A stretch of 64,000 nt of DNA from Bacteroidetes bacterium HLUCCA01 (lineage in GTDB: Bacteria > Bacteroidota > Rhodothermia > Balneolales > HLUCCA01). The position numbers and the translations under genes are program-made. The stretch covers positions 1-64,000 of the forward strand of contig LIHN01000004.1 of NCBI GenBank assembly GCA_001314545.1. The letters run 5' to 3'. The notes below the pieces were generated by a model. That model was not told where the DNA came from and ran no database searches. It saw only the letters and a program-made list of their open reading frames with translations. The stretch's first letter is position 1; every line of letters begins with the position of its first letter. Shown in pieces: positions 288-28,806 of the stretch.

Positions 288-2921
288 ATGAGTGATGTAA
301 AATCCAGCTTTACTTGGGCTAAATTTATAAAGAATCAGTTTGGCGAAGTTCTTAACCAACATCATTTAATAGCGCATTCTGCGGATGTAGCTTCGGTGTT
401 TGAGGCAATTTTAAAGCATTCTATACTTAATCAAAGAATAGCAAAACTTGCTGGGTGGGAAGAGCTCAACGATACTCATATCGCAAGACTTTCTTTTTTG
501 GCAGCTATTCACGATGCAGGTAAAGCAAATATTGGATTTCAAAATAAGATTAACGCGCAACCGCCTTTTGTAGCAGGGCATGTCAAGCCCATGCTTGACC
601 TGCTCAACGCTGATTCAGATATTCAAAGGCAACTGCTCCTTCCCCTGGGCATCGGAGATATAATGGACTGGTTCGAAGATGATGATGTTTCATCAAACTT
701 AACTGAATTTCTTTGTGCAACATGGGCTCACCATGGCAAACCGGTACAACCCGGCTACGATTATAGAAATAGGTATTGGAAGCCTGATGCCGACCGTGAC
801 CCTGCAAAAGCACTTCAAAGCCTGGGCGATGCAGCTAAGCGCTGGTTCCCAGATGCTTTTGAGGATAATGCCCGCCCCTTTCCCTCAAATCATGCTTTAA
901 TCCATGGTTTTAACGGTTTACTTACACTTGCAGACTGGATTGGCTCCGATACACGATTCTTTGACTATGCAGATTATACTGATGCTTACATCGACGAAGC
1001 CCGAAATCGGGCATCCGTTGCAGTCTCAGCCCTGTTTCTGAATCCGGAATCAGCTCGGTCTTACTTGGAAACCTGCGAGGTTGACTTCCCTCTTTTCTGC
1101 GATTTCCCTCCGTATGCCATTCAGAGTTTGTGCCTGAAAGCCCCCCTTTATTCTGGGGGCAGTATTTCCATTTTGGAATCTGATACTGGTTCCGGCAAAA
1201 CGGAATCTGCTATTGCCCGCTTTTTATACCTGTACAAACAGGGCATGGTTGACGGGATGTATTTTGCTGTACCAACCCGCAGTGCCGCCACACAGCTATA
1301 TGACCGGGTTCGTGAAGCTGTCACAAGAACCTTTCCTGACGCAACTAATAGACCACCTGTTGTGCAGGCTGTATCCGGATACATCAAAGTTGACGGTGTC
1401 GATGGCGTACCCTTGCCCCAGTTTCAGGTGCTTTGGCCCGATGAGCATGACAGTCATTTTGAAGAGCGGGCCTGGGCCGGAGAATCATCCAAACGCTACC
1501 TTGCCGGAGCGGTTGTAATTGGCACTATTGATCAGGTACTACTTTCAGGCTTGGCGTTGAAACATGCTCATATGCGCGCAACGGCACTACTTCGCCTGTT
1601 CCTTGTTGTTGACGAAGTACACTCTTCCGACTTTTACATGACAAGGTTACTTCAGCGAGTTCTCGACTTTCACATCAAGGCAGGCGGGCATGCTATGCTG
1701 ATGTCTGCAACGTTGGGTTCAGCCGCCCGGCTTAAGCTGCTTAAAGCTGACAGCAGTGCTATCCCCGACTTTAAAACTGCCGTTGGGGTGCCCTACCCGC
1801 TCTTAAGCCACCATGATGGTTCAAAACCGGGCATAGCTACTGAAACCTGCCACTCCTCAGGCTTTCAAAAAAAAGTGCGGATGGAGGTCCGGGCGAGGGC
1901 TGCTGCTCATGATGAGGTTGGTTTACTTGCCGCAGATTTTGCAGCTCAGGGTGCACGGGTGCTGATTATCAGAAATCTGGTTAAAGACTGCCTGCTCACA
2001 CAAAGGGCGGTTGAAAACACTATCGGGGTGACACCGGAAATGCTGTTCAGCGTTGATGGTAGAGCCGCTCCACATCACTCACGCTACGCCCCTGACGACC
2101 GCAAATTGCTCGATAAGAGTATAGAAGCGTGTTTCGGTAAAAACAGCCCCGGGCGGGGTCTGATTGCCACAGCGACCCAAACCGTAGAGCAAAGTCTGGA
2201 TATTGATGCCGATATCCTAATAACGGATCTATGTCCCATTGATGTTTTGCTTCAGCGGCTTGGCAGGTTGCACCGGCACAAACGAACACGTCCGGAAGCT
2301 TTCAGACAGGCTCACTGCATCGTTTTAACACCGGAAAACAGAGATCTGAGCACCTCGATTACTACTAACGGTACTGGCAATAAAGGGAAACACGGCCTTG
2401 GGACGGTATATAACGATCTCCGTATGCTTGAGGCTAGCTGGAGATTACTTGAAAAAAAGGAAGCTCCAATCTGGAACATACCCGTTGACAACAGGCTACT
2501 TGTGGAAAGTGGCACACATCCCGAGGTACTTAATGCCATCGTTAACGAGCTAGGTGATAAGTGGCTGATACACCGGCAGGCTATGGAAGGACAAATTTTT
2601 GCACAGCAACAAATCTTCGGCATAAGCAAATATGACGTCAACCTTCCCTTTAGTGAAACCAGCTTTTCGAGTGATTTTGGTAACCCAAAAACAAGACTCG
2701 GCACCAATGATTTCAAAGTGTTGCTACCCTCATATCCTGTTGGGCCATTCGGCCAGCCAGTCGGGGAGGTGACACTATCGGCAAGAAATTTCGGAGACAA
2801 CCTTCCCGAAAACCTTGTCATTCCTGGAGATGACATTCAGCAAACAGACAGCGGTTTCAGCTTCACCCTAGCAGGTAAGACCTTCACCTATACCCGTCAC
2901 GGATTAGCCCTTCAATCTTAA
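288..2921 (+). CDS. cas3: Cas3 HD nuclease / superfamily 2 helicase, type I-E
   Basis: Cas3 is recruited by target-bound Cascade and degrades the displaced strand. The 877-residue protein has an N-terminal HD nuclease domain: His30 in HSADVA, the H75-D76 pair in AIHDAGK, H148-H149 in WAHHGKP and the DWIGSD segment at 216-221. A helicase follows, with Walker A in DTGSGKT (about 299-305), a DEVH box at 442-445, SAT at 473-475, and the motif V/VI stretch with TVEQSLDIDADI and LLQRLGRLHRH. Length is normal for type I-E. The ATG at 288 is the first start after the upstream remnant and leaves the HD domain whole. It is the first gene of an eight-gene run on one strand, 22 bases before cse1, so it is probably cotranscribed. 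Confidence 0.97.
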   Translation: MSDVKSSFTWAKFIKNQFGEVLNQHHLIAHSADVASVFEAILKHSILNQRIAKLAGWEELNDTHIARLSFLAAIHDAGKANIGFQNKINAQPPFVAGHVKPMLDLLNADSDIQRQLLLPLGIGDIMDWFEDDDVSSNLTEFLCATWAHHGKPVQPGYDYRNRYWKPDADRDPAKALQSLGDAAKRWFPDAFEDNARPFPSNHALIHGFNGLLTLADWIGSDTRFFDYADYTDAYIDEARNRASVAVSALFLNPESARSYLETCEVDFPLFCDFPPYAIQSLCLKAPLYSGGSISILESDTGSGKTESAIARFLYLYKQGMVDGMYFAVPTRSAATQLYDRVREAVTRTFPDATNRPPVVQAVSGYIKVDGVDGVPLPQFQVLWPDEHDSHFEERAWAGESSKRYLAGAVVIGTIDQVLLSGLALKHAHMRATALLRLFLVVDEVHSSDFYMTRLLQRVLDFHIKAGGHAMLMSATLGSAARLKLLKADSSAIPDFKTAVGVPYPLLSHHDGSKPGIATETCHSSGFQKKVRMEVRARAAAHDEVGLLAADFAAQGARVLIIRNLVKDCLLTQRAVENTIGVTPEMLFSVDGRAAPHHSRYAPDDRKLLDKSIEACFGKNSPGRGLIATATQTVEQSLDIDADILITDLCPIDVLLQRLGRLHRHKRTRPEAFRQAHCIVLTPENRDLSTSITTNGTGNKGKHGLGTVYNDLRMLEASWRLLEKKEAPIWNIPVDNRLLVESGTHPEVLNAIVNELGDKWLIHRQAMEGQIFAQQQIFGISKYDVNLPFSETSFSSDFGNPKTRLGTNDFKVLLPSYPVGPFGQPVGEVTLSARNFGDNLPENLVIPGDDIQQTDSGFSFTLAGKTFTYTRHGLALQS

Positions 2922-2943
2922 CTCACTCTAACCACTGCAGCAT

Positions 2944-4485
2944 ATGAATACGGACAACAAATACAACCTGCTTGATGAAAAACTGATTTCCGTTAGGTTA
3001 ATTGACGGCTCGCCGACAGACCTAAGTCTTACGGAAATCCTACTCTCCCTGAGCACGAGCGATGATATTGTAAGCTTCAGCGCCCTTCAGCCGCATCAAC
3101 AGCAATCCTGGTACTGCTTTTTGGTACAACTTGCGGCTATGGCCGCTGCAAGGGAAAATGGAAACAAACTTCCCGATACGCTGCCCCGCTGGAAAGAAGT
3201 GCTGTTGAAGCTTTCCGACGGATCAGAATCTGCGTGGTGTCTTGTGGTACCTGACCTTAAACAGCCCGCATTCATGCAAACCCCGGTTATTAAAGGGTCG
3301 CTTGAGGACGCCGGGTATAAACCCGGGATTGAAGGACCGGAAGATTTAGATATTCTCATCACTTCAAAAAACCATGATGTCAAAGCAGTAAGAATGCGCA
3401 GCCCTAAAATTCAGCACTGGATTTTTTCACTCATTAACCTGCAAACCATGGAAGGGAATTTTGGTCGAGGGAATTACGGTATCGTTAGGATGAATGGGGG
3501 CTTTGGAAACCGCCCGTTTATCGGCTACACAAAGAGAATAGGGTTCGCTTCCCGTGTGAGAAGGGATATTGAAATATTGCTACTCAATAGGGAAGCCGCC
3601 GTCGAAAATTACTCCGACTTCGGTTATTCGCTACTATGGGTAGTCCCGTGGGATGGCGGCAAAAACAACGGAGTCCCGATCCAAACCTGTGACCCGTGGT
3701 TCATTGAAATTTGCAGGCGAATCAGGTTCTCTGAAAACGAAAATAGCTTGGAATCCTTCAGGGCTAACAGTGAATCCAAAAGAGTTGAGGCACCGGAGGA
3801 GCTTTTCGGTGTAACAGGTGACCCGTGGACTCCAATTGACTCAGAAAAATCAAAATCTCTTACGCTCGGGGATGCTGGCTTCAGTTATGAACTCATACAA
3901 AAGATTTTGTTTAAGCAAGGATACAGAAGTCCTGTATCTATGAACTTTAAGCAAGATGAAAAAGGAGGTACCCACCTCATTTGCCATGGTCTTGTGAGGG
4001 GGCAAGGAAAAACCGGGGGCCTTCATAAGCGCATCATACCTGTTTCTGTAAAAGCAGCAAGAGCCTTGTTTCAGGATACTACATTGCAGGTAAAACTCGC
4101 AAAACAATCATCCACAAGAGTTGGGATGGCTCAGGATGCTGCACAAAAAGTGTTGCGACCCGCTGTTGCTTTACTGCAAAGCAACGCTAACTCTGTGAAA
4201 GCTGACGCCCCAAAAGTTCAAAGCTGGATCAACCTCTTCAACTCTGCCATCGATCAGCGGTTTTTTGATTCACTCTGGGACTCCGTTTCCCTCGACCCGA
4301 ATGAAGCCCGGCAGCAATGGGCTGAAATCCTTTACATGGAAGCAGAAAAGATTTACCTCGAAGCTGAGCGCAGTGTACCTATAGCTCAACTGCGGCGATA
4401 CAGAACCATCAGCGCCGCCCGAGCGCTGTTCTACAGCCGGTCCCGCTCCGTTTTGGAATGGCCGCCCGCGCCGGAACTTATCTAA
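2944..4485 (+). CDS. casA: Cse1 (Cas8e), large subunit of type I-E Cascade
   Basis: Cse1 recognises the PAM and recruits Cas3. The 513-residue protein opens with YNLLDEKLISVRLIDG, matching the conserved N terminus of the family. At about residues 155-180 it carries the QTMEGNFGRGNYGIVRMNGG region, close to the G-x-x-GRGNYGIARMNGG signature of the L1 loop that contacts PAM DNA. A helical C-terminal half follows, as in the four-helix bundle that docks Cse2. Length is typical. It sits between cas3 and cse2 with gaps of 22 and 25 bases. Confidence 0.95.
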   Translation: MNTDNKYNLLDEKLISVRLIDGSPTDLSLTEILLSLSTSDDIVSFSALQPHQQQSWYCFLVQLAAMAAARENGNKLPDTLPRWKEVLLKLSDGSESAWCLVVPDLKQPAFMQTPVIKGSLEDAGYKPGIEGPEDLDILITSKNHDVKAVRMRSPKIQHWIFSLINLQTMEGNFGRGNYGIVRMNGGFGNRPFIGYTKRIGFASRVRRDIEILLLNREAAVENYSDFGYSLLWVVPWDGGKNNGVPIQTCDPWFIEICRRIRFSENENSLESFRANSESKRVEAPEELFGVTGDPWTPIDSEKSKSLTLGDAGFSYELIQKILFKQGYRSPVSMNFKQDEKGGTHLICHGLVRGQGKTGGLHKRIIPVSVKAARALFQDTTLQVKLAKQSSTRVGMAQDAAQKVLRPAVALLQSNANSVKADAPKVQSWINLFNSAIDQRFFDSLWDSVSLDPNEARQQWAEILYMEAEKIYLEAERSVPIAQLRRYRTISAARALFYSRSRSVLEWPPAPELI

Positions 4486-4510
4486 ACCTTAACCCATACC
4501 TCAACAACCC

Positions 4511-5107
4511 ATGGAACCAAACCTCTTTTCACTCAAGCAGCCAGACGCGACCGCTTCAACCGGCGCTGAGGCTGAAGTAAAGCCCGCCACTTCATCACCG
4601 CCTTCTATCAGGACCGCCGTTGGCAAACTGGCAACTATGCTAGGTTCTGACTCCGGGCTTTCAACCGGCGACCTCGCACAGCTGCGGCGGATTTCACCCG
4701 AAAAGCCCTATACGCCTGCACTTTGGCGCCTGTTGCTATCTCTCGGGCTGGACCAGTCGCCCCCGTGGATGAAGCAAGACATCTGGGAACGGCGTTGGGC
4801 ATCGGTCATGATGGCTATGGCCCACACGCAGGGCCTGCACAACTACGATACCCGCTTGGGGGAAGCCCTTGCAACCGCCGGCTGGTCTGAACTCCGTTTC
4901 GTGAAGCTCCTGAACAGCCGGGGTGAAATGCTCGAAATACAGCTCCGGCAGCTGGCACGCTACCTTGCCGGCAAAGCGCAGGCCGCTAACTGGGCCGAAG
5001 CAGCAGAGCTATTGTTTTCGCAGGAAGGCAAAAGAGCCGATAAGATCCGCCTTCAGGTTTCCCGCGACTATTACACAACTCTTTACAAGCAGCAAAAAAA
5101 CTCATAA
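4511..5107 (+). CDS. casB: Cse2 (Cas11), small subunit of type I-E Cascade
   Basis: Cse2 forms a dimer along the belly of Cascade and stabilises the displaced strand. The protein is 198 residues, almost wholly helical in composition, with the motif pattern of the family: GDLAQLRRISPEKPYTPALWRLL near residues 55-77 and a C-terminal arginine-rich helix ending RLQVSRDYY. The first 35 residues are a low-complexity Ala/Thr/Ser leader not usual for Cse2, so the true start could lie downstream, though no nearby ATG gives a better one. It is followed by cas7e after 26 bases. Confidence 0.93.
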   Translation: MEPNLFSLKQPDATASTGAEAEVKPATSSPPSIRTAVGKLATMLGSDSGLSTGDLAQLRRISPEKPYTPALWRLLLSLGLDQSPPWMKQDIWERRWASVMMAMAHTQGLHNYDTRLGEALATAGWSELRFVKLLNSRGEMLEIQLRQLARYLAGKAQAANWAEAAELLFSQEGKRADKIRLQVSRDYYTTLYKQQKNS

Positions 5108-5133
5108 AACATTACCCTTAAAAAATCAAAACC

Positions 5134-6432
5134 ATGAGCATACCAAAATTTATCCAAATTCACGCTCTTACATCCTATCCCGCAGCACTGCTAAATCGTG
5201 ATGATGCCGGTTTCGCCAAACGCATCCCTTTTGGAGGCAAAAGCCGAACCAGAGTTTCCTCACAGTGCCTGAAATACCACTGGCGCAATTTCAAAGGCGA
5301 ACAGGCACTGCAAGACCTTGATGTCGGCAAATCATTCCGCAGCCGGGAAACCCTCGCCAGAAAACTTGCACAGCATCTCGTTAATGACGGCTACCCTGAA
5401 AAACTGGTCATCGCAGCCGTTGCAGCCCTCAAAGAATCTCTGCTGAGTGGGAAGAAACTTTCTGATAACGACTTCCAGAAGGTACTGAATGCTGAAACAA
5501 CTGAAGAACTTCAGGAAGTTCGTAAATCAGTGCATACCAGTCAGCTTACTGTCTTTGGTGAGCCGGAGATTAACTATCTCAAAGAAGTCGTTTCAGACAA
5601 GCTCAGTCACATTAGGGAAAATCATCCCGAATTTTGGACAGATGTTTCCTCAGCTGATAAAAAAGAGATCAAGGCCGTTTTGGAACTTTTAAACGACTAC
5701 AAAGAAAATGACCTCAAAAAAAACCTGAAAGGGCTCACCCTTGCTGCCGGTCTCGGGGCTGCTATGTTTGGCAGGATGGTTACCAGCGACTTTCTAGCCC
5801 GCGGCGATGCAGCCGTTCATGTGGCCCATGCCTTTACAACCCACGAAGAAGAAAGTGAGAGCGACTATTTTTCTGCGGTTGATGAGCTTAGGAGGGATGA
5901 GCCGGAGGATAGCGGTGAACTTGGTGCTGGCCATATTAACAGTTCCGAGCTGAACAGCGGCCTATTCTACAGCTATGTAGTCATAGATCTGCCCCTGCTC
6001 GTTTCAAATCTGGAAGGCGTAAGCAGAGAAAACTGGCTGGAAGCAGACCGAAGTCTTGCGGCCGAAGTGCTGCAGCGAATGATTCACCTAATCGCGACCG
6101 TATCACCGGGTGCCAAGCTGGGCTCCACAGCCCCTTATGCCTATGCACAGTGCGTGCTTGTTGAGGCCGGCAACGCGCAGCCTCGCAGTCTCGCCAACGC
6201 GTTCCAAAAGGCCGTTACAGGACACGGAGATGGCATTCTGGCCAATAGTTACAAAGCACTGGCCTCATTTCTTGGCGATATGGACGCCATGTACGAAAAC
6301 ACCAATGAGCGAAAGCTGGCAGCCGTTGGTCCCAAAGAAGACCTGCTCAGCATTTCCGGAATTTCATCCTCTGAATCACTTGCTAAGATCAGCGAATGGA
6401 CAGGGACATTAATTAACCCAAGTGTATCATGA
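5134..6432 (+). CDS. casC: Cas7e (Cse4/CasC), backbone subunit of type I-E Cascade
   Basis: Six copies of Cas7e normally wrap the crRNA spacer. The N terminus, FIQIHALTSYPAALLNRDD then GKSRTRVSSQCLKYHWR, is the RRM-fold start shared by the family. A second conserved block, GRMVTSDFLARGDAAVHVAHA, lies near residues 212-232. At 432 residues it is longer than most Cas7e proteins. The extra length appears to be a Lys/Glu-rich helical stretch at about residues 85-200, in the thumb/helical insertion position. Its stop overlaps the cas5e start by four bases (ATGA), implying translational coupling. Confidence 0.95.
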   Translation: MSIPKFIQIHALTSYPAALLNRDDAGFAKRIPFGGKSRTRVSSQCLKYHWRNFKGEQALQDLDVGKSFRSRETLARKLAQHLVNDGYPEKLVIAAVAALKESLLSGKKLSDNDFQKVLNAETTEELQEVRKSVHTSQLTVFGEPEINYLKEVVSDKLSHIRENHPEFWTDVSSADKKEIKAVLELLNDYKENDLKKNLKGLTLAAGLGAAMFGRMVTSDFLARGDAAVHVAHAFTTHEEESESDYFSAVDELRRDEPEDSGELGAGHINSSELNSGLFYSYVVIDLPLLVSNLEGVSRENWLEADRSLAAEVLQRMIHLIATVSPGAKLGSTAPYAYAQCVLVEAGNAQPRSLANAFQKAVTGHGDGILANSYKALASFLGDMDAMYENTNERKLAAVGPKEDLLSISGISSSESLAKISEWTGTLINPSVS

Positions 6433-7175
6433 AGGTACTTCTTCTGACCCTACAGGCACCAATGATGAGCTTTGGCGCCCCGATGATTGACCACTACGGT
6501 GTTATTCAGTCCTATCCTGCTTCATCTCTCCTCATAGGCATGATGGCCAACGCCCTCGGCTTGCGGCATCATGAAAGCGACAAGCTTAACCGGCTGCAAC
6601 AGCGGATGCAGTATGCCTGCCGGCAGGATAGAGCAGGTAGCAAAGTACGTGACTATCAGACAGCAGACCTCGGGCAGGAGTTTATGCTTGATACCCATGC
6701 ATGGACTACACGGGGCAAAACGGAGGAGCGGAAAGGGGGGGGCGCATCCAAGGGCACCCACATCAGACTGCGCGATTATTTTGCGGATGCCCGGCACACG
6801 ATTGCCCTCACCCTCACCCCTGAAACGGAAAGTCCAACTCTTGAGGCACTTGCAGAAGCACTGAAGCTTCCCGAAAGACCGCTGTTCATTGGCAGGAAAA
6901 ACTGTCTGCCTTCAGCACCGGTATTTGCCGGATTGATAGAAGCAGATAACATCATTGACGCATTGCTCCGGGCGCAGGCACCAATAGGTGATTCTGAATC
7001 TGAGCGGAAGTACCGGATCTGGTGGCCGGCCGGCATTGAACAAGACCTGGTGACCGCCGAACAAACCCTGCCTGTTACCGATCAACGAGACTGGGAAAAT
7101 CAGATTCATGTAGGGGACCGGCTTGTTTCAACCGCACAGATAACCCTTCGAAAACAAAAGGAGGCAGATTTATGA
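6429..7175 (+). CDS. casD: Cas5e (CasD), 5'-handle-binding Cascade subunit
   Basis: Cas5e holds the 8-nt 5' handle of the crRNA and contacts Cse1. The 248-residue protein begins MKVLLLTLQAPMMSFG, the family RRM start (LxLxxPMxSFG). It then has the PASSLLIGMMANALGL helix at about residues 30-46 and a GRKNCLPSAPVFAGL block near 157-171, the Cas5e equivalent of GRKSCPPAxPL. The length is usual. Four-base overlaps join it to cas7e upstream and cas6e downstream, so these three are tightly coupled. Confidence 0.95.
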   Translation: MKVLLLTLQAPMMSFGAPMIDHYGVIQSYPASSLLIGMMANALGLRHHESDKLNRLQQRMQYACRQDRAGSKVRDYQTADLGQEFMLDTHAWTTRGKTEERKGGGASKGTHIRLRDYFADARHTIALTLTPETESPTLEALAEALKLPERPLFIGRKNCLPSAPVFAGLIEADNIIDALLRAQAPIGDSESERKYRIWWPAGIEQDLVTAEQTLPVTDQRDWENQIHVGDRLVSTAQITLRKQKEADL

Positions 7176-7957
7176 GTATTACTCAGCACCCACAAATCTG
7201 GATGGTACAGTTATGGCTGAGAGCCCCGCGCATGCTGGAGCTGGGCAGAATGCTTCATCTGCCACTCAGCAAAACGAGCAGCAATTACCTCGTGCACTGC
7301 GCACTTTCTGAGCTGTTTCAGAAACAGGCACCAAAGGTATTCAGCCTTGAAGACGAGCATCGCACTGCTGCGCAGTGGGATACCGAATCAGGCCGTTTGC
7401 TACCCGTTCTCTGCTACTCAAACGTGGATAAGCAAGCCCTGCAGCTACTTGCTCAGGGCTTTGCATCGCCAACTGTGTATGATATTGTGAACTGGGAAAG
7501 GGTTGCGGCAAAGCCGATGCCTGAATTTTTCCCGGAGAACATGAAACTCTCTTTTGAGCTGCGCACCCAGCCCGTAATGCGGAAAGCCTCCAACGGTGAA
7601 AAATGGAAAAAAGGACAGGAAATTGACGTCTTTTTATCCAAAGTCTGGCAGACAGGCGATCCGAACGTGGAACTGAACCGTGAAGAAATATATACCGAAT
7701 GGCTCAGACAGCTGTTTGCAAGGCAGGGTGGTGCAGAAATTGAAACCGTTGGTGTACAGCGGTTTTCACTTGAGCGGATGTCGAGAAGGAATCATGAAGC
7801 CAAACGAAAAGTAACACTTATTCAGCGGCCCGATGTTACCTTCAACGGCATCCTCAAAGTAAAAAACAGCAGCCTGTTCAGCAGGCTGCTCGAACAGGGT
7901 CTTGGCAGGCACAAAAGCTTCGGCTTTGGTATGCTCAAGATCCGAAGAGCACCCTAA
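7172..7957 (+). CDS. casE: Cas6e (Cse3/CasE), pre-crRNA endoribonuclease
   Basis: Cas6e cuts the pre-crRNA at the 3' base of the repeat hairpin and stays bound to it. The 261-residue protein shows Tyr39 and His42 in NYLVHCALSELF, with the same Y-x-x-H spacing as the catalytic pair of characterised Cas6e enzymes. It ends in the glycine-rich loop GLGRHKSFGFGML that binds RNA in this family. Its expected substrate is the CCCCAT-ACAC-ATGGGG stem-loop of the array downstream. The start overlaps cas5e by four bases; cas1e follows after 12 bases. Confidence 0.95.
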   Translation: MSITQHPQIWMVQLWLRAPRMLELGRMLHLPLSKTSSNYLVHCALSELFQKQAPKVFSLEDEHRTAAQWDTESGRLLPVLCYSNVDKQALQLLAQGFASPTVYDIVNWERVAAKPMPEFFPENMKLSFELRTQPVMRKASNGEKWKKGQEIDVFLSKVWQTGDPNVELNREEIYTEWLRQLFARQGGAEIETVGVQRFSLERMSRRNHEAKRKVTLIQRPDVTFNGILKVKNSSLFSRLLEQGLGRHKSFGFGMLKIRRAP

Positions 7958-7969
7958 AGCCAAGCGCTG

Positions 7970-8860
7970 ATGCTTAAAGGAAGATTAGGTCTCGAGACAA
8001 CCAGAGTACCCCATGCCGACCGGCACGGGCTGCTCTGGCTTGAGCGCGGCAAACTAACCGTTGAATTTGGCTGCTTGCTGTTTACGACTGCCGGTACCCA
8101 ATTCCTTGATGCCGGCGCTTATGAAATCCCGTTTCAGCAGGTTTCGAACATACTGCTTGGTCCCGGCACGCTCATCAGCCATGATGCACTGCGCCTGTTG
8201 GCCCGGCAGCAAACCGGCCTCGTTGCGGTTGGCAGCGGCGGAACCCGTATTTATGCCGTTAGCATGCCCTTCGGACCCGACCGTGCCGAAATTGCGCGAA
8301 AACAGGTTAAACTTTGGTCAGACCCGGAGTTAAAAATTCAGGTCGTACGTGCCATGTACGAAAAACGATTCGGAGCACCGCTACCACACTACGCCAAAGA
8401 CATCAACTCTTTAAGAGGTATAGAAGGCAGGCGTATGAAAGAAGTTTACAAATTACTGGCCGAAAAGTATGGTGTATCCTGGGAAGGAAGGCGGTTTGAC
8501 CGAGATAACCCTGATAACGATACAATACTCAACCAAGCCATAAATCACGCAGCAACAGCTGCCTACGCCTCGGCTCAAATTGCTGTTGCAGTTACCGGAG
8601 CAATCCCGCAGCTTGGCTTTATTCATGAATCGTCAAGTAGATCTTTTGCACTCGATATTGCAGACCTCTATCGTGCATCCGTTGTTTTACCAATAGCCTT
8701 TGAAGCTGCAAAAAAAGCAGGCATACATCAGAACTATGACATTGAAAGAGAAACCCGAAAGCTCGCAAGTGCTATATTTAGGCAGGAAAAGCTAATCCCA
8801 AGTATGATCGATAGTATCAAAGAACTAACTGGTATCAATGACAATAGTAATCACACGTAA
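7970..8860 (+). CDS. cas1: Cas1e integrase of the type I-E adaptation module
   Basis: Cas1 with Cas2 inserts new spacers at the leader end of the array. The 296-residue protein has Glu152 in RGIEGRRMKE, His219 in GFIHESSSRSFALDIADLYR, and Asp229/Asp232 in ALDIADLYR, aligning with the metal-binding Glu, His and Asp residues of E. coli Cas1. The active site looks intact. It is ordered as in other type I-E loci and overlaps cas2e by 23 bases, implying coupled synthesis of the integrase subunits. Confidence 0.97.
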   Translation: MLKGRLGLETTRVPHADRHGLLWLERGKLTVEFGCLLFTTAGTQFLDAGAYEIPFQQVSNILLGPGTLISHDALRLLARQQTGLVAVGSGGTRIYAVSMPFGPDRAEIARKQVKLWSDPELKIQVVRAMYEKRFGAPLPHYAKDINSLRGIEGRRMKEVYKLLAEKYGVSWEGRRFDRDNPDNDTILNQAINHAATAAYASAQIAVAVTGAIPQLGFIHESSSRSFALDIADLYRASVVLPIAFEAAKKAGIHQNYDIERETRKLASAIFRQEKLIPSMIDSIKELTGINDNSNHT

Positions 8861-9376: not shown

Positions 9377-11786
9377 GGTGCCCCCATACACATGGGGATA
9401 GACCCTGTTCGATTTTCAGCCCGGCGTTGCTAAGGCTGGTGCCCCCATACACATGGGGATAGACCCTTTGAAATTGACCTTTAATGAGCCGTGTAGCAGG
9501 TGCCCCCATACACATGGGGATAGACCCGAGATGGATTCCAAACTAGACAGGGTGCTGGAGGTGCCCCCATACACATGGGGATAGACCCGACGTGAAGGAT
9601 GCGTTCCCGCTCCTTCTCGGGGTGCCCCCATACACATGGGGATAGACCCCAAAGTTAATTACATCTGGAATCACCCAAAATGGTGCCCCCATACACATGG
9701 GGATAGACCCGAAATAGAGCGTTTAAAACGACTCGGAATCAAGGTGCCCCCATACACATGGGGATAGACCTTCGACCGCAACCAGGAAATGTGGCGAATA
9801 CAAGGTGCCCCCATACACATGGGGATAGACCCCAACGGCAAAACTTCTTAAGCTTTTGCCGTCTGGTGCCCCCATACACATGGGGATAGACCCATGGGTG
9901 ATCTCATCCCTACATACCTGGAAGAGGTGCCCCCATACACATGGGGATAGACCCGCTGCACAAATGCCACAATATCAAGCCCCCAGGGTGCCCCCATACA
10001 CATGGGGATAGACCCTAAAGTTGCCATGATTAAAACCTTGTAAGTGAGGTGCCCCCATACACATGGGGATAGACCCTGACCTGGGCGAAGCGCTCGCGAA
10101 GATGCGAAGGTGCCCCCATACACATGGGGATAGACCCATTGCCCGCAACCGATGCGACCTGACGTACAAGGTGCCCCCATACACATGGGGATAGACCCGG
10201 TTCATGGGGTGATGAAACGCTTAACATTGAGGTGCCCCCATACACATGGGGATAGACCCGGCCAGCTGGTTGACTTCGGTCGACAAGTCCAGGTGCCCCC
10301 ATACACATGGGGATAGACCCGAGCCGACCCCGCCGGTCACTCCTGAACTAAAGGTGCCCCCATACACATGGGGATAGACCCCGGGTAACATTTAATTGCC
10401 CTCCATGACTAAGGGTGCCCCCATACACATGGGGATAGACCCTCCCGGAAAGGGCGCGATGACATACGGAAAAAGGTGCCCCCATACACATGGGGATAGA
10501 CCCCCGGATGTTAATAAACCCCGTGTAATCGCCCAGGTGCCCCCATACACATGGGGATAGACCCGGTAGTGCTGATGTGAAATAGTCTTTTTCCCAGGTG
10601 CCCCCATACACATGGGGATAGACCCCTAACCACCATGAGCCAACCCATACCCCAACCGGTGCCCCCATACACATGGGGATAGACCCAGCGATTGGAGAAA
10701 CTTGAAAATCGGTTCAACGGTGCCCCCATACACATGGGGATAGACCCAATAGCCTTTTTGGATGATGTGCCTTGATATTGGTGCCCCCATACACATGGGG
10801 ATAGACCCGGTGCGGGTGGGCAAATTGTTAAGCGCATTGTGGTGCCCCCATACACATGGGGATAGACCTATATTCTAATGGGTCTTTGATTCCGAGTCGT
10901 TGGTGCCCCCATACACATGGGGATAGACCCAAGAGGTAAAAGTAGGCGAGCTCTACCTGGACGGTGCCCCCATACACATGGGGATAGACCCTTATCAAAC
11001 TTCGTCGTCGTGCCTGGGAGAAAGGTGCCCCCATACACATGGGGATAGACCTACGTTGACGACAATCTGGAATGGACAGGTACGGGTGCCCCCATACACA
11101 TGGGGATAGACCCCGACCGCCCACACTACCACGCAATCATCTTCAGGTGCCCCCATACACATGGGGATAGACCCAAAATTGGACTAAGCCGAAACGAACC
11201 GCTGTAGGTGCCCCCATACACATGGGGATAGACCCCGCATTGCCAAAATTTGATTTGTCTGAAAGTGGGTGCCCCCATACACATGGGGATAGACCCGCGC
11301 TGGCTGACGATGACTTCCTCGTCGCTGAGGTGCCCCCATACACATGGGGATAGACCCAATTTCACATAAGGAGGCAAAAATGCAAGCGGGGTGCCCCCAT
11401 ACACATGGGGATAGACCCGGTTGTTATCGAAGGACGTTTGGCCTTGCCTAGGTGCCCCCATACACATGGGGATAGACCCTGCTTCGATACAAGCGATACT
11501 AATGGCCATACGGTGCCCCCATACACATGGGGATAGACCCGCTTCCAATCATCCATTTCCTGAAGAAGTAATGGTGCCCCCATACACATGGGGATAGACC
11601 AACGCTCAAATTCATCAATAATCCTGTGAGAAATAGGTGCCCCCATACACATGGGGATAGACCCCTATCTTCCTCGATGCTGAGGACATTAATTACGGTG
11701 CCCCCATACACATGGGGATAGACCCTGAATCCTGAGTACATCAAGATTGCTCAGGAGGGTGCCCCCATACACATGGGGATAGACCC
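9377..11786 (+). CRISPR. Type I-E CRISPR array, 40 repeats and 39 spacers
   Basis: Forty copies of a 29-base repeat recur every 61 bases with 32-base unique spacers. The exception is spacer 37 (11602-11635), which has 34. The repeat core forms a perfect hairpin, CCCCAT-ACAC-ATGGGG, followed by ATAGACC, which would become the 5' handle after Cas6e cleavage; this matches the E. coli pattern of stem then ATAAACC. Orientation (+) follows from that and from the leader lying next to cas2. The first 28 bases look identical in every copy. Only base 29 varies: C in most, T after repeats 7, 25 and 28, and A after repeat 37. The distal repeat (11758-11786) is not degenerate. No duplicated spacers were noticed. 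Confidence 0.99.
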
Positions 11787-25215: not shown

Positions 25216-28200
25216 ATGAACATCCTCACCCCATGCTCCCGTGTTTCATCCGGGGCGGTTTATCCGGCCGAATCGGGTTTCAGGCCATCAGGCAACTGGT
25301 TTTGGACTGTCGGGATTATGTTCACGTTGCTCACGGCCGGCCTTCCGGAAGCCGGCGCCCGTCCTTCAGGAGCTACGTCCGTGTTGTACCCGTATGCAGT
25401 CGGCATTGGCGGGTTCCCGGCCGGCGAAGCAGGTTTGTACGGAAGCCCTGGCACACTGCCGACCGGCGACGCAGGTTTACATGCATCCGGTTCACTACCC
25501 CCGGCGGGACCGGTGCAAATGGCCCACAATGGAGGTTTCTCTGACCGTCCCGGCGAAATGCCCAGACGCAATGCGGGTCAGTCCGCCACCACCCCCCGAT
25601 TTATTCCCGGGCAGCTGATCCTTAAACTGCACTCCGGCAACACGGCGCTCAAGTCGACCGGCACCTCCGGGCCGGCCGGTTCACCGGGACCGGCCACGCA
25701 CGCCCAGCTCTATGCGACCCTTCAGGCCATGGGCGGCACCGAGCTCCTTCCTGTAATGAGCCCGGAAGCCCTGCGCGAACTCCAGACTGACACGCGGCTC
25801 AGCCGATTCCCCGCCACCAGCTCCGATTCCCGTTCCGGGTACACCCGTGCTCTTCCTGACGACCTCACCCGGACCTACATCGTATCCATCAACCCGTCCA
25901 TCGACCCCCTCATTGCAGCCCGTAAAATCACGGAAATCCCCGGTGTTGCCTACGCCGAACCCCGTGTCATTATGGAAACCACCGACCTGCCCGGGCACGT
26001 TCAGGCTCCCTCGTCCATGTTCACAAAACGTGAACTTTCCGCCGGGCACGCAGGGGTTCGTCTATTCACAAAATGTGAACATACAGCTTCCCAAAACAAC
26101 CCACACTTGTTCACGTTTCGTGAACAAGTTGCCCCCGGAAGCACAGACGAAATATTCACAGAACGTGAACTTTTCATGACCGGCACAGAGAATTCTATGT
26201 TCACAAAACGTGAATATTCTTCCGTTGACCCAACCCCGTTAACCGTTTACCCTGCGGGATTCGCGCCCACCTCAAACCATACTCCCGGGACGCTTGACAC
26301 TACCCCCAACGATCCCCGCTTCGGCGACACCGGCCAGAATTATTTCAGCTACCAGCGTATTCCTCAGGCGTGGGAAACCTCCACCTCAGACACCTCCATC
26401 GTCATCGCCATCGTTGACTCCGGGGTCGACTACCTGCATCCCGACCTATCTGCCAATCTGTGGCGCAACCCGCAACCCGGTCGGGCAAAGGAGCTGTTTC
26501 CGGGCATCTTCGCCGCTGTAGAAAACGATACCATCGGCTGGAATTTCTGGGACAGCGGACCGATTTTCAATCCCGTCCAGAATGGCGATCCCCGTGCCAA
26601 TTTCTCCAGCCACGGTACCCATGTGGCCGGCATCGCTGCGGCTGCAACCAACAACGGCATCGGAATTGCCGCCAGCGGCTACCATAGTCGCTACATGGCT
26701 GTGAAAGCCGGTGGCACGGCCGACGAACCCCGCGCCATCGGGTTCGGATTCGAGGGCATTCTCTATGCCGCCGTGAATGGAGCCGATGTAATCAACGCCA
26801 GCTTCGGCACCTCCTTCAACTCCCAGTTTGGTCGCGATGTGGTGGATTTTGCTACCTCCCTGGGCTCCCTGGTGGTAGCCGCGGCGGGAAACACCCGGCA
26901 GTTCGGCCTGTTCTACCCCGCATCCTACACCAACGCCGTAGCCGTGGCCTCGGTGGAGCAGAACACCGGAACCGTCTCGAATTTCAGCACCTACAACTTT
27001 GGTATTGATGTGGGTGCCACAGGCCGGAGCATTTTGGGCACCATCCCGGACAGCTCCTATGCGCTGAATACCGGAACCTCCATGGCTTCGCCCATCGTGG
27101 CCGGCGTTGCCGCGCTCATCCGTCATGCCCATCCCGATTGGTCGCCCCAGCGTATTCAGGGGCAGCTCCGCAGTACAGCCAATCCCTCCATCTACAATGC
27201 CAATCCCTCCCTGACCTGGATGCTGGGCGGCGGTCTGCTGGATGCAGAAAAGGCCATCAGTGAACCCCTTCCGGCGGTCCGACTGGTAGACGCTGCCTTC
27301 GAGAATCAGGATGGTCAGCGACTGCTGCTCAACGAAGACGGTACCATACGCATCCGCCTGACCAATACCGGCGAGACCGCAACGGCCCTGACCTGGCAAA
27401 TTGAAACGGTTACGGGCGGAGGCGATCTCAGCACCCCGGGCGGATCCATCGGCGCCGTGGCCCCGGGCGATACCCTCAGCTTCGACATCCCCCTGCGCAT
27501 TCCGGACGACATCGACCCGCGCGAAAACCCGGGCTTTGTAATCCGATTACAGGATGCCGCTACCGGCTATGACGATTTCCTGCATGTGGAATATCAAAAT
27601 CTGTACGTTGACACCCACGATGCCAACCGGGTTCGCATGAGCTTTTCCAGTAACGGGGGTATCGGCTACGGGGTTGGCGGCGATGCCACCACCGGTGTGG
27701 GATTTGTGCCGCTGGTTGAGGAAAACGGCACCGTGTTTGATCTGGGAAATGTGCTGTACGAGTCGGGCCTGATGGTCATGTATGATACCGACGATCAGAC
27801 CTGGCTGGTAGACAACGTGCGCGAGACCGACTCGGCTCCGCTGCAGTTCAAGCCGCTGAATCCGTTTGAACTCGGCGATAATTCGGACGGAACCGCCCAG
27901 GTGGGTCGCGCCCTGTTCAACTCCGATTTCAATCCGGATGCGCCGAAGCTGGAGGTGTCTATGCAGACCTACGCCATGACCGACGGCGGTCCCGATCAGG
28001 GCATCCTCGTATTCTTCACCCTGGAAAATCAGGATGCGCTGGGCCGGACCTTCGAAAACCTGTACGTGGGCACCTACACCGACTGGGACATCGCCAATTT
28101 TTCCCAAAACAGCGTCCGGTTCAGTGAACCCGACAGCCTGCTCATTGCCTATGACACCAACAACGGCGAGGAACCGCTGGTCACCGTCGCCCACCTGAAC

Positions 28201-28806
28201 AACGTTGCCTCGGCACTGGCCATTGACAACGCCTGGGACGATCCGGTAGACAGCCTGAATTTCGGGGTGTACTTCGGGGACAGCGATCCGGGCTTTACCC
28301 GGGAGTACAAACGATGGTCGATGCTGGCCGGTACCCGGATGACCGCGCGCGACAGCACCGATATATCGATGGTCACTTCCAGCGGTCCGTTTACCCTGGA
28401 GCACCTCCAAAATATCACCGTTGGATTTGCCTATCTCTTTGGCATGAATGAAGATGAACTTCGCCAGCAAGCCGCTTTGGCCCGGGCACAGGAGGTGGTT
28501 TTGCTGAGCAACGAACCCCGGAGCCCGGTCTATGTTCCGGATCGGGTGGAGCTGGTGGGGAACTTTCCGAATCCGTTTAATCCGGCCACACAAATTCTGG
28601 TGGAGATCAATCAGCCGATGGAGGCAGACCTGGCGGTCTATGATATGCTGGGCAGGCAGGTTACCACGCTTCACCGCGGAATGCTGGACTCACCGGGGCG
28701 CTACGCATTCACCTTTGACGGCAGCAGGCTGGCCAGCGGGGTGTATCTGGTGGTCATGCAGACACCGACTTCCCGGCTAACGCGGAAAATGCTGCTGCTG
28801 AAGTAA
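25216..28806 (+). CDS. Subtilisin-like (S8) serine protease with T9SS sorting domain
   Basis: The 1196-residue secreted protease has the complete catalytic triad: Asp401 in AIVDSGVDYLHPDL, His466 in SSHGTHVAGIAAA and Ser622 in NTGTSMASPIVAGVA. A hydrophobic segment at about 28-45 serves as signal. It is preceded by 27 polar residues, so the ATG at 25318 could be the start. A propeptide (FIPGQLILKL) follows a low-complexity stretch. The C terminus, GNFPNPFNPATQI then LASGVYLVVMQ and RKMLLLK, is a type A T9SS sorting domain, so it should be exported and attached or released at the surface. Between propeptide and catalytic domain (residues 269-333) it carries five FTxxE repeats encoded by DNA palindromes at exactly 45-base spacing. 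Confidence 0.95.
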   Translation: MNILTPCSRVSSGAVYPAESGFRPSGNWFWTVGIMFTLLTAGLPEAGARPSGATSVLYPYAVGIGGFPAGEAGLYGSPGTLPTGDAGLHASGSLPPAGPVQMAHNGGFSDRPGEMPRRNAGQSATTPRFIPGQLILKLHSGNTALKSTGTSGPAGSPGPATHAQLYATLQAMGGTELLPVMSPEALRELQTDTRLSRFPATSSDSRSGYTRALPDDLTRTYIVSINPSIDPLIAARKITEIPGVAYAEPRVIMETTDLPGHVQAPSSMFTKRELSAGHAGVRLFTKCEHTASQNNPHLFTFREQVAPGSTDEIFTERELFMTGTENSMFTKREYSSVDPTPLTVYPAGFAPTSNHTPGTLDTTPNDPRFGDTGQNYFSYQRIPQAWETSTSDTSIVIAIVDSGVDYLHPDLSANLWRNPQPGRAKELFPGIFAAVENDTIGWNFWDSGPIFNPVQNGDPRANFSSHGTHVAGIAAAATNNGIGIAASGYHSRYMAVKAGGTADEPRAIGFGFEGILYAAVNGADVINASFGTSFNSQFGRDVVDFATSLGSLVVAAAGNTRQFGLFYPASYTNAVAVASVEQNTGTVSNFSTYNFGIDVGATGRSILGTIPDSSYALNTGTSMASPIVAGVAALIRHAHPDWSPQRIQGQLRSTANPSIYNANPSLTWMLGGGLLDAEKAISEPLPAVRLVDAAFENQDGQRLLLNEDGTIRIRLTNTGETATALTWQIETVTGGGDLSTPGGSIGAVAPGDTLSFDIPLRIPDDIDPRENPGFVIRLQDAATGYDDFLHVEYQNLYVDTHDANRVRMSFSSNGGIGYGVGGDATTGVGFVPLVEENGTVFDLGNVLYESGLMVMYDTDDQTWLVDNVRETDSAPLQFKPLNPFELGDNSDGTAQVGRALFNSDFNPDAPKLEVSMQTYAMTDGGPDQGILVFFTLENQDALGRTFENLYVGTYTDWDIANFSQNSVRFSEPDSLLIAYDTNNGEEPLVTVAHLNNVASALAIDNAWDDPVDSLNFGVYFGDSDPGFTREYKRWSMLAGTRMTARDSTDISMVTSSGPFTLEHLQNITVGFAYLFGMNEDELRQQAALARAQEVVLLSNEPRSPVYVPDRVELVGNFPNPFNPATQILVEINQPMEADLAVYDMLGRQVTTLHRGMLDSPGRYAFTFDGSRLASGVYLVVMQTPTSRLTRKMLLLK
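26020..26214. repeat. Five phased 15-base palindromes inside the S8 protease gene
   Basis: TTCAC-N5-GTGAA occurs at 26020, 26065, 26110, 26155 and 26200, exactly 45 bases apart. The cores are AAAAC, AAAAT, GTTTC, AGAAC and AAAAC. The third copy has arms extended to 10 bp (ACTTGTTCAC and GTGAACAAGT). The 30 bases between copies show no evident similarity. In frame each palindrome encodes F-T-x-R/C-E. Confidence 0.95.

Follow-up and report, generated by a model that had tools for sequence, protein, structure and literature searches.

Sequence comparisons indicate that the palindrome TTCAC-N5-GTGAA, five copies of which form a regular array inside a subtilase gene of the 64,000-nucleotide stretch analysed here (the window), is quite probably a binding site of a small Cro/CI-like HTH protein, which would be encoded elsewhere in the genome. 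The whole explanation, in which the palindromes are bound by this protein, the arrays are clusters of its sites and chromosome marking is the favoured role, is one that we consider likely. The palindromes lie at a pitch of exactly 45 bp, at the same five positions as recorded in the initial annotation of this gene (Table 1), where only 0.05 copies would be expected by chance in the window and five were reached in 0 of 100 shuffles. They are read in frame as FTKRE, FTKCE, FTFRE, FTERE and FTKRE. The palindrome arms are invariant, and the 30-bp spacers have a mean identity of 9.8/30, a value reached by 24 of 2000 shuffles; the spacers, described at first as unrelated, are nearly so, but their identity slightly exceeds that of the shuffles, so that slight traces of an earlier tandem duplication may persist in them. 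The core of the middle copy is GTTTC, in the near reverse-complement form already noted, and its arms, given before as 10 bp, measure 11 bp with 3 nt between them and are 100% complementary. In three of the five copies, the inner pair is an A–C mismatch.

Table 1. Features of the palindrome array and its host gene (positions in the window)
Feature	Position	Strand	Sequence or basis
Palindrome 1	26020..26034	.	TTCACAAAACGTGAA
Palindrome 2	26065..26079	.	TTCACAAAATGTGAA
Palindrome 3	26110..26124	.	TTCACGTTTCGTGAA; extended arms 26105-26129, 11 bp, perfect
Palindrome 4	26155..26169	.	TTCACAGAACGTGAA
Palindrome 5	26200..26214	.	TTCACAAAACGTGAA
Secreted subtilase ORF, 1196 aa, T9SS-type C-terminal sorting domain	25216..28806	+	Host gene
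Subtilase catalytic domain, downstream of array	26395..27183	+	Domain match
In-frame insertion, ~105 aa, between propeptide region and catalytic domain	25977..26306 (boundaries approximate)	+	Orthologue alignment

The subtilase ORF matches Peptidase_S8 at amino acids 394–656 (E 9e-43) and Por_Secre_tail at amino acids 1117–1192 (E 4e-6). The Peptidase_S8 match begins after the array, in agreement with the placement of the array between propeptide and catalytic domain in the initial annotation. The array-bearing segment is absent from the closest subtilase orthologues: among the aligned subtilases of the same genus and family, the linker at this site is ~5 aa in genomes G001 and G003, ~35 in G002 and ~110 here. 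FTxRE is kept by none of the aligned orthologues, the segment itself being missing, and a search for degraded palindromes in the same-genus linker gave one match with two mismatches, which was not clearly above chance.

The source genome belongs to the order Balneolales (22 contigs, 3.37 Mb) and contains 38 exact sites, compared with 0 for a reversed-pattern control. The counts in the five genomes of its family are 38, 19, 14, 28 and 17, against a mean of 4.9 and a maximum of 13 across 124 Balneolales genomes from outside it (rank test, p 7e-5). Thus the excess of the motif for which a search of related genomes had been advised is present in the family relative to these 124. The opposite picture, with FTxRE kept alongside broken palindromes and no genome-wide excess, was found in neither respect; its peptide part is inapplicable because no orthologue keeps FTxRE. 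The top count outside the family is that of G005, a member of another Balneolales family with 13 exact sites, in which an orthologue of the HTH gene was not detected. The palindrome consensus is R-TTCAC-R-NNN-Y-GTGAA-Y; the shared unit is only ~17 bp, and the flanks are not conserved. Most single sites with an A/T core and all three arrays of the source genome lie within ORFs, and the relatives show the same trend. Few sites are found at promoters, their depth within the gene varies, and the host genes (glmS-like, recD-like, RND, GH13-like, protease and helicase) have no common function.

Besides the array in the subtilase gene, a second array of seven copies at a pitch of 45 lies in a helicase ORF and a third, at a pitch of 36, in an FAD-oxidoreductase-like ORF, both functions being assigned from sequence and alignment; these two arrays read SQNVN and both are insertions relative to the orthologues. 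Neither 45 nor 36 bp corresponds to whole helical turns. A more distant member of the family has 15 copies, mostly at a pitch of 21–22 bp; they follow a sorting-domain gene in an array that is largely noncoding, and a neighbouring gene holds a coding array.

A search of the family for paired sites returned, in five of five genomes, a pair at a pitch of 30 where one and the same small HTH gene begins. Its GTG start codon falls within the first palindrome; the second is translated as SHYVN, SHHVN, SHNVN, SRNVN or SQNVN. The protein matches Phage_CI_repr (PF07022) above cut-off in 5/5 family members, and its predicted model matches Cro/CI folds (phage 186 CI with a probability of 0.99), but no match reaches E 0.001. 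Across the order, a palindrome with up to one arm mismatch is present at the gene start of 12/12 HTH orthologues with the recognition helix L[SA]M, compared with 0/11 of those with another helix; as the carriers fall into two clades (family f1, that of the source genome, and genus g18), this is strong evidence but represents fewer independent events than the 23 homologues. In g18, another genus of the same order, the HTH relative is longer with an S24-like domain, which scores above cut-off in two of the five relatives, and a single perfect palindrome lies 33–39 bp upstream of the matched domain. The S24 domain was not found in the HTH proteins of family f1. The HTH gene is chromosomal and adjoins msrA in 5/5 family genomes, and no phage genes were seen within the ~3-kb loci read. 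In the source genome it encodes 122 aa and is located on contig C7 at ~26.9 kb (about 26,878–27,243), and its own two sites carry one arm mismatch each and are therefore not the best-matching copies. The predicted target sequence of the HTH protein would be TTCACRNNNYGTGAA. The two sites at its own start codon suggest that the protein probably regulates itself. Among the options raised in the initial annotation, a binding array for a DNA protein is the one supported by these results, namely by the genome-wide excess, the linked CI-like HTH family, and the codon constraint and use of two reading frames set out below.

The presence of tens of sites, mostly within unrelated genes and few at promoters, makes chromosome marking or titration the most likely role. 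Given binding by the HTH protein, marking or organisation of the chromosome of the SlmA/MatP type is our tentative proposal, with protein titration as the alternative. The arrays would then be points of high occupancy, and a local transcription roadblock in the host gene may be a side effect. On contig C7 (1.07 Mb), four sites fall within 121 kb, and stretches that contain sites have a slightly higher GC content than samples of the contig (p 0.005); both observations are only suggestive. Contig C7 showed too little GC skew for the origin or terminus to be placed. This contig also shows a strong GC gradient, from ~45% to 60%.

It is improbable that the roadblock is the function itself, with the intragenic sites acting as operator clusters at which a bound repressor stops transcription until it is released on a signal. 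Although the arrays are multi-site clusters located 0.5 to 2.9 kb into genes, the HTH is of a repressor-type fold and the g18 relatives have at their C terminus an S24-like domain, as is typical of inducible repressors, the host genes are functionally unrelated and blocking several of them would be harmful. Moreover, the position of the site in the gene is not constant, and the f1 protein is without an S24 domain.

The sites seem to have arisen in more than one manner. The genes for a LEA14-like protein, an RND pump and a GH13-like enzyme have the site in place of aligned residues, at unchanged length; the sites in the genes resembling recD and glmS, like those that follow two signal peptides, are found where the sequence is inserted or variable. 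Single sites made by substitution without insertion argue against a mobile element, and the palindromic mobile repeat first suggested is not supported for single sites, several of which arose in this way, but may still apply to the arrays, which do sit in insertions absent from orthologues. In its fuller form, this alternative proposes a palindromic element inserting in frame, as in Rickettsia, with arrays produced by repeated insertion or by copying between genes, and we regard it as rather improbable. The same palindromes do recur across unrelated genes, and the helicase, oxidoreductase and subtilase arrays all occupy segments missing from orthologues. In addition, one spacer of the window resembles one spacer of the helicase array at 18/30 bases despite their different reading frames, a likeness reached in 7 of 2000 shuffles and a hint of copying between arrays. 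Against these observations stand, beside the in-place substitutions, the shortness of the shared unit, the absence of conserved flanks, the lack of any associated transposase among what was seen, and the marking of HTH gene starts in another genus by the same palindrome.

Under the explanation that we prefer, the array in the window would be a cluster of sites accumulated in an in-frame insertion within the loose linker of the protease. Tandem duplications whose lengths were multiples of three would have kept the frame, the spacers would then have drifted, and selection at the DNA level would have retained the palindromes. This explanation leaves the great length of the insertions unaccounted for, and the 13 sites of G005, the array pitches that do not fit whole helical turns and the mismatched sites of the HTH gene itself also weigh against it. 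The glmS-like amidotransferase ORF (5104–7653 of its stretch) is 849 aa here, ~810 in G002 and ~615–650 in relatives; its extra length comes from a long insertion before LGHTRWATHGE, with one palindrome inside. The oxidoreductase orthologue of G002 has different in-frame insertions of its own, one at the same place with the near-palindrome GTCACAAAACGTGAAC and one at a new place. In-frame loop growth seems to be common in this genus. A further reading, which is speculative and on the whole doubtful, is that a domesticated phage-type repressor has become a chromosome marker with its sites written into coding sequence, the in-frame loops serving the DNA sites and not protein function.

Two of the three reading frames of the palindrome are open, and both are used, as FTKRE in the window and as SQNVN in the helicase and oxidoreductase genes. 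The pattern TCNCARAAYGTNAAY, which covers SQNVN written with TCN for serine and with all valine codons, has 18 matches in the genome, of which 18/18 carry TCA and GTG, minor codons that account for 10.8% of serine and 34.7% of valine usage respectively. This result indicates that the constraint is on the DNA and not on the peptide. Throughout the seven units of the helicase array, TCA and GTG do not vary while the spacers drift, and one unit of the oxidoreductase array has both arms changed together (GTCAC...GTGAC). Three sites are shared with G002 of the same genus (in the glmS-like gene, the GH13-like enzyme and a 594-aa exported protein); their arms are kept, with differences between the species at the degenerate R/Y positions only.

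That selection acts on the peptide or on a hairpin in the RNA, instead of on a DNA site, is thus very improbable, and both readings are largely refuted. Many single sites encode SQNVN and the array as RNA gives a better fold than its shuffles (z -4.06), but the two frames give different peptides, the codons are fixed, and the inner A–C mismatches, common on the sense strand and disfavoured in an RNA stem, make such a stem unlikely. The protease-processed linker of FTKRE sites proposed earlier is also unlikely, as the arrays in the helicase and oxidoreductase genes encode SQNVN. A plain coding minisatellite with symmetry by chance is scarcely credible in spite of the visibly duplicated spacers of the helicase array, being refuted by the genome-wide excess, with the arms in the window invariant against randomised spacers and single palindromes also present in many genes, as well as at the starts of HTH genes.

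We compared the sites with known systems. SlmA sites lie mainly in coding regions, apparently without gene regulation, according to an excerpt of the SlmA work (PMC3116907), and the sites here are likewise mainly in coding sequence and away from promoters. As with SlmA/SBS and MatP/matS, there are tens of near-invariant palindromic sites (38 exact here, control 0). SlmA, however, is of the TetR family and MatP of another fold, whereas the protein here is PF07022 Cro/CI-like, and regular in-frame arrays such as those found here are not described for SlmA/MatP in that excerpt (PMC3116907). The PF07022 HTH and the paired putative operators at its own start are shared with Cro/CI-type phage repressors; in contrast with these, the gene is chromosomal, beside msrA, and most putative operators lie inside other genes. 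Non-canonical LexA-like regulators of Bacteroidetes also have a phage-repressor HTH and N5-spaced palindromes, GGA-N5-TCC and CTAA-N5-TTAG (PMC8565304), and an S24 domain is found in the g18 relatives too, but the family HTH protein has no S24 domain and the half-site differs. The published Balneolaeota LexA box is the direct repeat TTACACATATTTTWTACATA (PMC7739468), which is unrelated, and it was rejected as the identity of the palindrome.

Rickettsia palindromic elements are inserts of ~150 bp with a conserved peptide (review PMC10969869). The palindromes here similarly occur in frame within unrelated genes, but they differ from those elements (~100–150 bp, conserved peptide) in being a 17-bp site used in two frames and made several times by substitution; orthologues show an empty site for the arrays and not for several single sites. 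PARCELs are tandem palindromic coding repeats that encode a conserved 25-residue amphipathic domain (PMC2996958), and tandem palindromic repeats within coding sequence are common to both, whereas the units here are of 15 residues with no conserved peptide beyond the palindrome. A CRISPR array was also rejected, since the array is open in-frame coding sequence in a protease gene and the CRISPR repeat of the window differs. The window does contain a CRISPR–Cas operon at 288–8860, which looks like type I-E (cas3, large and small subunits, cas7, cas5, cas6 and cas1, gene names judged by eye from the ORFs), followed by two CRISPR arrays (9987–10504 and 11449–11725) with the repeat GGTGCCCCCATACACATGGGGATAGACC at a 61-bp period.

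For replication iterons inside a phage O gene, the comparison is the lambda origin. Paired sites were found in 28 viral contigs, and one of the ten examined matched in detail. In this contig, L322 of IMG/VR, a Phage_rep_O gene has two perfect and two near palindromes (3005–3119), the first two of them 45 bp apart, which read SQNVN with FTKDE copies beside them. The sites are possibly an intragenic origin, and the host gene is the replication protein itself, unlike those of the arrays here. The palindromes are lacking in two annotated relatives of this O gene, for which reason convergence was assumed, and the resemblance to the arrays is likely to be convergent.

Similar sites occur in distant bacteria. 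Many Lachnospiraceae records among the matches listed have a recurrent pair of TTCAC-N5-GTGAA at a pitch of exactly 45 bp, as in contig L063 (TTCACTATAAGTGAA and TTCACAAATAGTGAA). Gut Bacteroidales MAGs (L070, L080 and L138), also among the matches listed, have arrays of the motif at a pitch of 40–41 bp, mostly outside long ORFs and with conserved spacers, which look like a different element. Both were set aside as candidates for the same system, as core and context differ.

CI-like repressors and the operators they use are already known, as are chromosome proteins with sites in coding regions. Our literature searches found no description of this palindromic site family, nor of regular in-frame multi-copy arrays that lie in unrelated genes and are linked with a chromosomal CI-like protein. 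The pattern suggests a system of DNA binding or chromosome marking within coding sequence that has not yet been described. If binding is confirmed, the protease, helicase and oxidoreductase arrays would be cases in which protein sequence has been shaped by the need to hold a DNA–protein site, and they would provide a straightforward way to test how far DNA-level selection can bend coding sequence. Balneolales would then have a candidate chromosome-organising or titration system built on a phage-repressor fold.
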